From positions 1 to 58,169 of IMG/VR virus record IMGVR_UViG_3300037258_000189: a DNA stretch of 58,169 bases; one strand, 5' to 3'. The notes under the pieces are model-generated. The model was not told the origin of the DNA. It saw only the letters and a program-made list of their open reading frames with translations, and made no database searches. This stretch comes from a virus. A program made the position numbers and the translations under genes. This document shows, piece after piece, positions 15,039-24,662 of this stretch; position 1 is the stretch's first letter; each line of letters begins with the position of its first letter.

Positions 15039-15833
15039 TCAGATGGTCGCGGCGCTCGCCGTGTAGAGATTGACGATCCCGAAGTCCTGCTTGGTATTGC
15101 TGTCCGGGATCGAGGTGAACTGCGGCTTCAGCATGCCGATGATCCGGCCGACGGCGATACCAGGGCGGTTCTTGTAGTCGTTCTGGTCCGCCTCCTCGTA
15201 TTCGATGTCGTTGATCGTGGCGAAGCCCATCGCCTGCGCGCCCATGAACAGCGCCTGCGCGCCGTCGACGGTGCCCGCCGCGCCCCACTTGCTGCCGCTG
15301 GCGAGGCCCAGGGTGGTCTGGACCTTGTTGTGTTCGTACAGCACCACGCCGTCGATCACGGCCAGGGCGTTGCGGAACAGCGGGTTGTCGTTGCCCCGCG
15401 GCGCCGCCCGGCTGGTCAGGGTCTGGTAGGTGGCATCGTTCTTCAGATCGCGGCACTGCTCGGTCGACAGCACCATCCCGTACCATTCGCGGCCGCCCGA
15501 ACGGATCGGCTTCATCCGCTTGCGCTTGGCGTAGGCCTGCGCGGCCACGATCATGTGCCACGCCATGGTGTCGGTCGCCTGCAGGGTCGCCGTGCTGGTT
15601 GCCACGTTGGCGAACCGCTGCCGCCCGCTCGAGGGCGCCACCACGTCGGCGGCGAACGAAAGCTGGGTGAGCTGGCTCGTGGAGGAGCGCGTCGAGCCGT
15701 CGTTGTTGTAGGTGAACGCGACACCGCTCGCCATCAGGAAGATCATCTGGTCGATCTTGTCGGCCAGCCAGAAGGCCAGCTTCTCGCGGGCAGTAGAACG
15801 AAATCTGATCACTGTCCGCTGCTCGGCCATTTG
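15039..15833 (-). CDS. Major capsid protein, exon 2 (N4 gp56 family)
   Basis: C-terminal 264 residues of the N4 gp56-family coat protein. After splicing the exon begins with CAA (15833-15831) and reads QMAEQRTVIRFRSTAREKLA, then LADKIDQMIF, which is exactly how N4 gp56 proteins continue after the QLRH-x-V motif of exon 1. An ATG at 15830 is internal to the protein; an in-frame TGA lies five codons further upstream within the intron, so this exon cannot make the whole coat protein without splicing. Further family features are AWHMIVAAQAYAKRKRMKP and GREWYGMVLSTEQCRDLK. Together with exon 1 the spliced product is about 370 residues, close to the usual 390-400. It forms the capsid shell with the scaffold encoded upstream. 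Confidence 0.85.
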   Translation of the reverse strand, partial: QMAEQRTVIRFRSTAREKLAFWLADKIDQMIFLMASGVAFTYNNDGSTRSSTSQLTQLSFAADVVAPSSGRQRFANVATSTATLQATDTMAWHMIVAAQAYAKRKRMKPIRSGGREWYGMVLSTEQCRDLKNDATYQTLTSRAAPRGNDNPLFRNALAVIDGVVLYEHNKVQTTLGLASGSKWGAAGTVDGAQALFMGAQAMGFATINDIEYEEADQNDYKNRPGIAVGRIIGMLKPQFTSIPDSNTKQDFGIVNLYTASAATI

Positions 15834-16642
15834 CGTGTGTGTTCATGCGGGGACGCTAGTCCCGCACCGTCAGTCCCCAGCGGCGGGGCTGACTGCTGCA
15901 TGTTGCCATGCAGACCAGACTATATCTTCGGCCCGATTGCAGGTCGGGTCGCTCGGCACTTCGCGCCGCTTGGCGCTACGGGCATCACACCCTAGTCGTT
16001 GAACCTTCTCTGAGCAGGTGGGCACAAACCCCGCCGTTGCGGAATTTCGAGATGTTGCAGTTGTAGCAAAGGACCTGGAAGTTGGTCGGGAAGCCGTTCT
16101 TGACGATCCAAGCATACATGTGCTTGGCCCATCTGAGCGCCGGCTCATTGCGCCTATGCTCGTTCCCGTCGTTGTCGACGTGATCGAGGGTCAGCATCGA
16201 CCGCTCCGTCTCTCCGCAACACACGCACCGATAACCGCCGTAGTGCTCAAACACCTGATCCCGAAGCGCATACGTCCATACGCGGCGACGTCTGTTCTTC
16301 TCGACCTTGTGCTTGTGGTAGCTCTTGTTGACGATCTTTCGGGCTCTCTCGGGGTTTTCGTCCCGTCGCCTTTGTTCCTTCGCCGCATTCTTCGCGCGAT
16401 GGCAGGTCAGGCAGACATGCTGCCGATACTGCTTTCCGCGAAGCCTTTGGCAATAGACCTTGGCGAAATCTTCAAGCGGCTTCTCCGCGCCGCATGTCCT
16501 GCAAGTTCGAACTGTCTCAGAGCTTGGCTGCTGATTGTCTGCGTGATCTGACATGGGGCGACTGTGCCACATGCCCAACAGAGTTTCCAGCAATTAACCG
16601 AGTTATCACCTGCGCGTTGCCGCGCCGGGGGGCTTCTTACAA
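15834..16642 (-). mobile_element. Group I intron (809 nt) in the major capsid gene
   Basis: Splice sites are predicted after T16643 (exon ends ...AAG GGT) and after G15834 (intron ends ACACACG), meeting the group I rules of a U before the 5' site and a terminal G. Joining gives GGT CAA ATG, Gly-Gln-Met, as expected for the capsid family. P1 can form between exon GGGU and intron GCCC (near 16629-16632). Core elements: AATTGCTGGAAACTC (16581-16595), a typical P4-P6 start; GACTA (15993-15997) pairing with TAGTC (15918-15922) as P7, in the familiar AAGATATAGTC context; a P9 hairpin 15896-15913 with a GCAA tetraloop; and two more 3' hairpins. An HNH ORF fills the interior. Unspliced RNA would give a truncated 107-residue product ending VRSKGL. 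Confidence 0.88.
15985..16554 (-). CDS. HNH homing endonuclease encoded in the capsid-gene intron
   Basis: 189 residues from ATG 16554 (a TTG at 16593 would lengthen it into the intron core and is less likely). N-terminal zinc-ribbon: CRTCGAEKPLEDFAK and HVCLTCHRAKN give two CxxC pairs. A basic linker (NRRRRVWTYALRD) precedes the HNH core: YRCVCCGETERSMLTLDHVDNDG, with His of the LDHVD motif, then a second CxxC (LCYNCN). This is the pattern of HNH enzymes associated with phage group I introns. It would cut intronless capsid alleles and drive intron spread. Its 3' end overlaps the 5' strand of intron P7, so coding and ribozyme sequence share bases. Confidence 0.85.
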   Translation of the reverse strand: MSDHADNQQPSSETVRTCRTCGAEKPLEDFAKVYCQRLRGKQYRQHVCLTCHRAKNAAKEQRRRDENPERARKIVNKSYHKHKVEKNRRRRVWTYALRDQVFEHYGGYRCVCCGETERSMLTLDHVDNDGNEHRRNEPALRWAKHMYAWIVKNGFPTNFQVLCYNCNISKFRNGGVCAHLLREGSTTRV

Positions 16643-16960
16643 ACCCTTGCTGCGTACGCCGTGCCGAAGCTGGTCGATGTGGACGAGCACGCTGTCGTTG
16701 AACAGCGGCTCCTCGTTGCCCGACAGGATGTTGTCGCCGGCGATGCCGTCCTGCTGCAGGTCGGCCACCAACTGCATGATGCATTGGTCGCCGCGCTCGG
16801 TGCGGGTCAGCTCGGTGATGCGCTGGATGACGTTGTTCATCCCCGCGCCCACGAAGCCGTTGCTCATCCAGAAATTGGCGTCGCGGCCGGCGATCCAGAT
16901 TTCGGTCGCCCAGACCATCTTGCGTGCGGTGCTCAGGGCACCGAAGTCCGTCGTAGCCAT
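16643..16960 (-). CDS. Major capsid protein, exon 1 (N4 gp56 family)
   Basis: N-terminal 106 residues of the coat protein. ATG at 16960 has GAGGAG 7 bases upstream. Family signature: LSTARKMVWATEIWIAGRD at residues 9-27, then MNNVIQRITELTRTERGDQ, a GIAGDNILSGNEEPL loop and the strongly conserved VHIDQLRHGVRSKG at the end. The frame then runs into TTG TAA in the intron. The break falls inside the conserved motif where other N4 gp56 proteins continue with QM-EQR. Scaffold gene lies 14 bases upstream. Confidence 0.85.
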
Positions 16961-22637: not shown

Positions 22638-24662
22638 TCAGGTGGCCTGCGGCTGGCCTGGCTGGGGCGGGTGCGGTCCCATCGGGCCGGCTGGCGACGG
22701 TGGCGCGCCGTGCGGATGCGGGGAGTGCGCGCCCTGGTGCGGCTGCTGCGCCGGGTGCGGTGCGCCCCCTGGCGCCCCTCCTGGCCGCTGTGCGCCGCCG
22801 CCGGGCGGAACGCCCTGTTGCGCCTGCGCCTGCTCGGCCTGCTGCACGGCCAGCTTCAGCTCGTCTTTGCGGCCCAGCGAGCTTGCGTCGATGATGAAGC
22901 TCGACGGGATCGGAATGCCGACCTGCTGCATGTTCAGCAGCTCGTTGAACTGGCCGGCGAGGAAGCTGTCCGAAAGGCTCGTCTCGTCGATCATCACGTC
23001 GTAGCGGCCGAGCGTGACGTTGTTGATGATGCCCGCCGCGCTGCGCTGGTTGAGGATATGTTCGACGGGCGTCGAGCCGGGCCCGGTGATCCGCACGATC
23101 CGCTGCTCGGTGTAGTGCTGCTGGACCACCTCGAGCTGCTTGCGGCCGAACAGCTCCTTGCTCCGGTGGTAGTTCGAGATGAACAGCTCGAGGCCGATCA
23201 CGGTCTGCTGCTGGCGCGCCTGGATGGCGCGGCCGGAGACGGTGGCCTGATCGACCTGGCCCAGCGCGCTGTCGTTGATGCCGGCGACCTCTTTCATGTC
23301 GCCCTCCGCCTCTTTCTCGAGCTGCTCGATGCTGACCGGCGCCTGGACTGGGCTGATCTGCTGCGGCTCGGACAGGGCTGCATCAGCACCTTTCGTCCAC
23401 TCCAGCATGAGGCCCGGCATGCCGCCTTCCTTCTCGAGGCGGCGTTTCATCTCTGGCGTCAGGCTGCCCTTCTCGTATTTCCAGCCGCTGTTGGAGGTGC
23501 GGCCGATGATGTTGAGCCTGGCCGTGCGCCGGACGTTCACCTCGTCCTGGATCGACAACAGGTCATGCACCATGCCGCGCGTCTTGCCGCGGCGGAAATA
23601 CGGGAAGTAGGGGATCAGCGTCATCGTGTCGTAGGGCGACCACTCGTCGAACACGACGATGTCGCCGATCATGTGGGTCCAGCGCAGCCGCCGGATGCGC
23701 TTGCGCACGACCGCTATGTGCTCGCCGGTCTGTTCGGCCCAGGCCAGAACCTTCTGGACGCGATCGGGACCCCAGTCGTCCGGGATGCGGCGCTGATCTC
23801 CCGTGTCGTAGTCCACGAAAAACCATGCCCAGGTCCGCACGTAGTGCTGGATGTCGAGCATGCGGATGGTTTTTCGGTAGGTGTCGACCCAGTTGTAGAA
23901 CTGGTCGGTGTAGAGCCGCCACGAATTTGGGTTGTCGACGTCGCCGCCGAACTTGCGCCACGGCGTGATTTCTTCGTGGCCCTCGTAGATCGTGCTCGGG
24001 AACTGGTTGAAGGTCATCCCGTTGGTCAGCGGGCGGATCAGGTTCGCCGCCGGGACGCCGTAGAAGTACTCCACCTCGTCGACGCTGATCCAGCGCGAGC
24101 AGGTCACGTGGCTGCCGCTGTTCAGGTCGTACTCGTCGGCGTCCGGGTCGACGTAGACCGTGAACGGGTCGACCGCCTTCCACTGCACGTCGCCGAACAT
24201 GTTGACGTTGAAGTCGAGGCGGCAGTCGTAGTAGCCGCGCCCGGTCAGGATGCCGTCTAGGAACACCTCGCTGTCGACGTAGGCCAGCATGTTCTGCTTG
24301 GCGATCTGCTTGGAAACCGCCGAGAGGACGCTCGCGACCTCGGCCGTGCCGGTGCCGTCATTGCCGGGCAGGTAGGCGCTGTCGGTCTGGTTATTGAGGT
24401 GATACCCCATCACCAGGTTCACCAGAGGCCGGATCTTGTTGATGGTCAGCACCGGGCGGCGCTCGTCGACGAGCTTGCGCAGGTCGCGCTCGGACCACTG
24501 CTTGCCCTCGAAATACTCGACGCACTGCTTGGCCTGCTCCGACCACGTGGACAGCGCGTCGGCCGCCCGCCGGAACCGCTCGGCGTGCTTGATGATCATG
24601 TCCCAGTCCTGGCGCGGCAGCTTTCGCGTCAGCGGGTCGATCAGGACGGTCGAGCCGGACAT
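22638..24662 (-). CDS. Portal protein, P22 gp1-like
   Basis: 674 residues, ATG start. Characteristic start of P22-type portals: a helical N-terminus, then ALSTWSEQAKQCVEYFEGKQW, RPVLTINKIRPLVNLVMGYH and LNNQTDSAYLPGNDGTGTAE. Central clip/stem elements follow (RGYYDCRLDFNVNMFGDVQW, VYVDPDADEYDLNSGSHVTC, DIVVFDEWSPYDTMTLIPYF). An SGRAIQARQQQTVIGLELF helix occurs near residue 480. The C-terminus is Gln/Pro/His low complexity, as in portals with a barrel tail. It forms the dodecameric ring for DNA entry and exit. TerL lies upstream with one small gene between. Confidence 0.85.
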   Translation of the reverse strand: MSGSTVLIDPLTRKLPRQDWDMIIKHAERFRRAADALSTWSEQAKQCVEYFEGKQWSERDLRKLVDERRPVLTINKIRPLVNLVMGYHLNNQTDSAYLPGNDGTGTAEVASVLSAVSKQIAKQNMLAYVDSEVFLDGILTGRGYYDCRLDFNVNMFGDVQWKAVDPFTVYVDPDADEYDLNSGSHVTCSRWISVDEVEYFYGVPAANLIRPLTNGMTFNQFPSTIYEGHEEITPWRKFGGDVDNPNSWRLYTDQFYNWVDTYRKTIRMLDIQHYVRTWAWFFVDYDTGDQRRIPDDWGPDRVQKVLAWAEQTGEHIAVVRKRIRRLRWTHMIGDIVVFDEWSPYDTMTLIPYFPYFRRGKTRGMVHDLLSIQDEVNVRRTARLNIIGRTSNSGWKYEKGSLTPEMKRRLEKEGGMPGLMLEWTKGADAALSEPQQISPVQAPVSIEQLEKEAEGDMKEVAGINDSALGQVDQATVSGRAIQARQQQTVIGLELFISNYHRSKELFGRKQLEVVQQHYTEQRIVRITGPGSTPVEHILNQRSAAGIINNVTLGRYDVMIDETSLSDSFLAGQFNELLNMQQVGIPIPSSFIIDASSLGRKDELKLAVQQAEQAQAQQGVPPGGGAQRPGGAPGGAPHPAQQPHQGAHSPHPHGAPPSPAGPMGPHPPQPGQPQAT

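Follow-up and report, generated by a model that had tools for sequence, protein, structure and literature searches.

A probable HNH-bearing group I intron in the major capsid gene of an uncultivated phage and the capsid-gene locations of its relatives

In the virus record IMGVR_UViG_3300037258_000189 from IMG/VR, the coat gene is broken into two reading frames, which raises the question of what the insert is and how a complete coat protein could be made from such a gene. The stretch of DNA analysed here (58,169 nt, positions 1 to 58,169 of the record) is called the window below. An earlier note, made from the letters of the sequence, had proposed that a group I intron splits the gene and that the two frames lie 809 nt apart. 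These coordinates hold, and a profile search assigned both halves to consecutive parts of phrog_334: the exon 1 ORF (16637..16960, minus strand) matched model positions 1-103 (3.5e-19), and the exon 2 ORF (15039..15830, minus strand) matched positions 105-379 (1.3e-50). PF13252 agrees on the identity of the gene, with a match spanning both exons. This places the gene in the phrog_334/PF13252 family, a minor amendment to the N4 gp56 naming of the earlier note, as TIGR04387 (N4-gp56) reached 51.5 bits on exon 2, under its curated cut-off of 60. A second intact coat gene, which the earlier note had counted against its own reading, was not detected in the 58-kb record, a linear metagenomic contig that may be incomplete. 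The features of the locus are listed in Table 1.

Table 1. Positions of the features of the interrupted capsid gene in the window
Feature	Position	Strand	Basis and remarks
Exon 1, major capsid gene	16643..16960	-	106 codons, 3′ end GGT, phase 0; phrog_334 1-103, PF13252
Exon 2, major capsid gene	15039..15833	-	begins CAA ATG GCC, stop included; phrog_334 105-379
Predicted group I (IA-type) intron, 809 nt	15834..16642	-	RF00028, R1 covariance model, covariation, boundaries
HNH/endonuclease VII-like homing endonuclease ORF, 188 aa	15985..16551	-	in P6 loop; ATG start; longest frame from TTG 16593
P1, exon GGGU / intron GCCC	16630..16646	-	U16643 opposite G16633, U.G wobble at 5′ splice site; fold and junction search
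P2 hairpin GCGCG-GCAA-CGCGC	16612..16625	-	fold
P3 5′ strand CUCGGU	16597..16602	-	partner 15957..15952 GCCGAG; 4/6 pairs double-changed, 13 introns
P7 5′ strand GACUA	15993..15997	-	partner 15922..15918 UAGUC; 3/5 pairs double-changed, 100% paired
P7 3′ strand UAGUC	15918..15922	-	covariation, R1
P8 hairpin CCCGA..UCGGG	15932..15948	-	covariation alignment
P9 hairpin CUGCAUG-GCAA-CAUGCAG	15896..15913	-	5/7 pairs double-changed
P9.1 and P9.2 hairpins, terminal G (15834)	15834..15892	-	fold z -3.1; 3′ end UGAACAyA..G recurs in relatives
Predicted spliced junction sequence			exon 1 side ...AGCAAGGGT, exon 2 side CAAATGGCC

When T16643 was joined to C15833, the reading frame continued as ...RSKG/QMAEQRTV (the slash marks the junction), and Gly106-Gln107-Met108 was restored. 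This junction received the top score among the 63 frame-keeping U/G junctions tried, and uninterrupted relatives agree with it, as the earlier note had expected for Gly-Gln-Met: L271, with 72% identity across the exon 2 region, reads RSKG/AMSEQRTV and L094 (63% identical) reads RSRG/KMSEQDTV at the site. The boundaries follow the group I rule that the note had invoked, since the 5′ exon ends in U (U16643) and the insert terminates in G (G15834, minus strand). Based on the comparison with the uninterrupted L094, both exon 1 (dN 0.30, dS 1.73) and exon 2 (dN 0.33, dS 1.15) are under purifying selection. In an unspliced mRNA, the exon 1 frame would terminate at codon 108, the second codon of the insert (TTG TAA, its first 6 nt). 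Taken with the single coat gene and the constraint on the exons, this stop leads us to infer that the coat protein of every virion needs splicing. The same stop codon bears on the proposal of an intein, or of some other protein element inserted in frame. Such an element may be imagined within a conserved protein and has an endonuclease, as seen here, but the exon 1 frame stops almost at once, an RNA core is present, and Pfam and PHROG profile searches of the reading frames gave no match to a Hint domain. The probability of an intein is therefore negligible, and it was rejected; the stop codon refutes it unless recoded. A sequencing error as the cause of the split gene was also considered and rejected.

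Based on Infernal searches with group I covariance models over 15834-16642, as the earlier note had suggested, an intron core was found. Rfam model RF00028 aligned to 16652..15896 with 40.4 bits and an E-value of 1.3e-8 when searched locally, or 7e-7 for the entire window; the score is below the gathering score of 50, because the ORF of about 560 nt in the P6 loop led cmscan to misplace P7; its alignment put the P7 region inside the ORF. A covariance model built from 12 other introns with the window left out (R1) matched 16008..15893 at 99.4 bits (E 9.9e-24), and an R1-type search of uninterrupted capsid loci gave no match. Another R1 match in the window, at 22973-23079 (12.6 bits, E 0.12), was judged to be due to chance. 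The full set of helices was found, i.e., P1, P2, P3, P4, P5, P6a, P7.1, P7.2, P8, P9, P9.1 and P9.2, plus P7, and the P3-P7 pseudoknotted core with P4, P5, P6, P8 and P9 is present. The GACTA/TAGTC pair, which the earlier note had placed as P7 in an AAGATATAGTC context, lies where it was predicted and is backed by covariation, and the GCAA-capped hairpin that follows is P9. A visual search for P10 was negative. P7.1 and P7.2, the hairpins between P7 and P3 that are the hallmark of the IA subgroup, both covary in 13 introns; within IA, the intron is presumably of the T4-type (IA2).

Covariation was assessed in an alignment of these 13 introns, all from capsid genes and with their ORFs removed. 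In it, 96.3% of the cells were paired, and both sides had changed in 34 of the 50 pairs. None of 500 shuffles matched the observed pairing, the double-change counts or the covariation score, and one matched the number of pair types, so that the window alignment exceeded all shuffles in four of the five measures. When the partners were slid by 1-3 columns, pairing fell to 33-41%, although some excess over the slid versions is to be expected as the structure was hand-written from the window row, and R1 is the stronger test. It should be considered whether the intron is only a remnant that splices slowly or not at all, in a contig that represents a defective genome, as the Rfam score below gathering could indicate. 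Since the catalytic helices are all intact, and both the exons and the endonuclease frame are stop-free and under purifying selection, a remnant seems quite improbable.

The 188-aa ORF on the minus strand (16551..15985), which was absent from the earlier note, matched the profiles phrog_2255 (7.9e-13) and phrog_1035 (2.6e-12); the match to Pfam PF01844 (HNH) was under the cut-off, and a PDB search with the protein gave a chance-level match only. The catalytic and zinc residues of HNH/endonuclease VII proteins (C123, C126, D137, H138, C176, C179 and N180, forming the DH, CxxC and CxxCN motifs) are invariant. Comparison with the relatives in L254 (dN 0.46, dS 2.61) and L174 (dN 0.53, dS 1.70) gave dN/dS below 0.35, which is purifying selection. 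The termini of the protein are encoded by sequence of the ribozyme itself, DNQQPS by the P5/P4/P6 strand and EGSTT by the P6/P7 strand, and this is common to the relatives. In L254 (575-1564), a short contig that is assigned to a Gallionella MAG but probably comes from a phage, the HNH protein has a duplicated N-terminal zinc-ribbon stretch.

The position of this ORF between the coat halves would also suit a free-standing HNH gene that has split the coat gene without splicing, the halves working as separate proteins. Split genes of such a kind exist; the nrdA gene of phage Aeh1 is reportedly split into halves that work in this way. Nevertheless, the ORF is embedded in a complete group I core that covaries, and the U/G junction yields precisely the sequence of the family. 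Apart from a conserved internal Met, exon 2 lacks a start codon, and an identical junction recurs with other introns. We regard an unspliced split gene as highly improbable and rejected it for the covarying core and the exact U/G junction.

If the insert is a homing intron, empty and occupied copies of its site should tell something of its movement. Of 156 loci surveyed, 143 were uninterrupted. The exact codon used in the window is also interrupted in four contigs (L174, L175, L292 and L311). The HNH proteins of the first three are about 50%, 45% and 56% identical to that of the window, respectively, while the capsid proteins of L174 and L175 are distant, with 30% and 32% identity. Under horizontal homing, introns at one codon are expected to have endonucleases that resemble each other more closely than the host proteins do, as seen here. 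In L311 (1590-2480), the intron at this codon is AT-rich and its endonuclease is HNH-type but unrelated, so that introns have entered this site at least twice. Because a full-length capsid ranking hides interrupted genes, queries for prevalence were placed 3′ of the site, where most introns leave the ranking unaffected. Among 75 relatives in the clade of the window, 4 were interrupted (two of them near-duplicates); in a second set of relatives, none of the 72 in which both parts were visible was interrupted, and two contigs start inside an intron. It should be noted that an IMG/VR search with exon 2 as a single protein gave no matches, and alignment queries were needed. The intron occurs only sporadically, which suits a homing element.

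Based on the above results, 16642..15834 (minus strand) is read as an IA-type group I intron. No other reading fits the sequence together with its covariation, the uninterrupted copies of the site and the independent insertions at this codon. For the whole explanation, a mobile HNH-bearing group I intron (IA-type, with a T4-like core) in the only detected major capsid gene, we estimate a probability of about 0.94. We suggest the following pathway for this element. The transcript would fold through P1-P9, and exogenous guanosine would attack after U16643. Exon 1 would then be joined to C15833, restoring the capsid frame. The HNH protein, presumably translated from the P6 loop, may cut intronless capsid genes at the conserved Arg-Ser-x-Gly/x-Met-x-Glu-Gln, and the repair of the cut gene would copy the intron in. 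Splicing, cleavage and homing are proposed here from sequence comparisons.

Why should such an element lie in a capsid gene? HNH relatives from IMG/VR often split phrog_334 capsid genes, and the same lineage was found at about 10 more phrog_334 positions, including residues near 30, 63, 67, 72, 85, 101, 112, 134-136 and 262 (window numbering; some boundaries are uncertain by a few residues). In a second major head family, phrog_283, there are one or two insertion positions, at the gene start. Introns with HNH relatives were seen there in L178, L179, L180, L187-L192, L196, L204, L207, L208 and L214. These insertions often follow N-(R/K)-Q, an exon end seen directly in the sequences of L189, L192, L196 and L207; L208 has N-R-E instead, and L178 breaks earlier. 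An R1-type core lies nearby in 45 of the 80 best HNH relatives, and 41 of these 45 loci fall within capsid genes or immediately upstream of them (27 in phrog_334 and 14 in phrog_283), a count that includes near-duplicates and comes from a query derived from capsid introns. The remaining four are outside capsid genes, one of them adjoining a tail sheath gene. Members of the lineage found here are thus mostly in phage capsid genes. In the HNH tree, the host site is strongly clustered (14 changes, as compared with 35.4 after shuffling), and L254, L174 and L175 form a group with the window (SH-aLRT 92, by a quick method that left many open forks).

Several arrangements among the relatives deserve mention. 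In L229 (2627-2738), an intron core of the R1 kind is located just upstream of most of the tail sheath gene (phrog_165). In L203, L205 and L224, an HNH relative lies directly before an uninterrupted phrog_283 capsid gene and has no intron core, apparently a free-standing form. L199 and L251 carry two insertions per capsid gene, and two neighbouring group I cores were seen in each of the contigs L190 and L221.

To compare with these HNH-based counts, an HNH-independent sample of 80 contigs was picked by the exact core pattern. Eight of the 80 were in the phrog_334 or phrog_283 capsid families. A long match to the HNH type of the window was present in four contigs, all of them phrog_334 introns (4/4), vs. 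1 of the 76 others, and for this reason the capsid preference seems to belong to the endonuclease lineage and not to the ribozyme core. Conservation at the capsid insertion sites exceeds that at random positions only modestly (0.636 as against 0.586, p=0.023), and for this reason it was not taken by itself as an argument. We lean towards the view that this HNH-intron lineage is specialised on phage major capsid genes, in two families and at about ten shifting sites, and that specialisation, not chance, explains the locations. The element appears to be a parasite favouring the most essential virion gene.

A lineage that seems tied to the most abundant virion protein, across sites and two capsid families, makes the question of gene preference testable: the activity of the HNH protein can be compared between intron-bearing and intronless capsid-gene fragments of many phages. 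There is also a practical consequence, as gene callers truncate coat proteins in intron-bearing contigs, and the capsids of MW202615 and MW202512 are annotated without their first part. In MW202615.1 (Podoviridae sp. ctwe8250, L006), capsid introns occupy two sites, about 220-1014 and 1064-1404; the second intron is about 340 nt long and has no ORF, and the GenBank capsid annotation covers the last exon only. In MW202512.1 (ctDrO704, L013), a window-like intron at about 648-1274 splits the capsid gene near residue 30, and the locus is annotated as an icea protein plus a shortened capsid.

Among known systems, the T4-type IA2 introns (td, nrdB and sunY) and their relatives share the P7-P9 core and P7.1/P7.2 with the window, and sequences in Tequatrovirus, Pectobacterium, Pseudomonas and other phages match about 40 nt of the 3′ part of the intron with 92-100% identity. 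However, their endonucleases are of a different lineage. T4-type introns are best known from genes of nucleotide metabolism. The gene preference of phage group I introns has been called mysterious, the preference noted being for genes of nucleotide and DNA metabolism (PMC12350094), and no report of a capsid-preferring intron lineage at many sites was found in the open-access literature.

The rarity that the earlier note had ascribed to a coat-gene intron was overstated, given LittleE, Tuc2009 and the several dozen relatives found here; capsid introns are already known, and the capsid preference of this lineage is the new part. In the Cluster J mycobacteriophage LittleE, splicing of a capsid intron was proved by RT-PCR and N-terminal sequencing (PMC3706429). 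Like that of the window, this intron of about 820 nt lies in a phage major capsid gene, has U before it and G at its end and contains an endonuclease ORF, but the capsid gene and the site are other ones, the ORF is LAGLIDADG-like and on the opposite strand, and the class is given as "most likely group I" (PMC3706429). Lactococcal phage Tuc2009, as far as its citation in PMC3706429 describes it, also has a group I intron in a capsid subunit gene, in this case with a Gram-positive host. Jug phages combine group I introns with HNH genes in essential phage genes, and their splicing is seen in metatranscriptomes; unlike in the window, where the coat gene is interrupted, the genes named are terL, nrdD and DNA polymerase (PMC12363816). 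Finally, mirusviruses have introns with homing endonucleases preferentially in virion genes, that of the capsid among them; in both respects these introns resemble that of the window, but they are spliceosomal introns of eukaryotic viruses and not ribozymes (PMC12768974).
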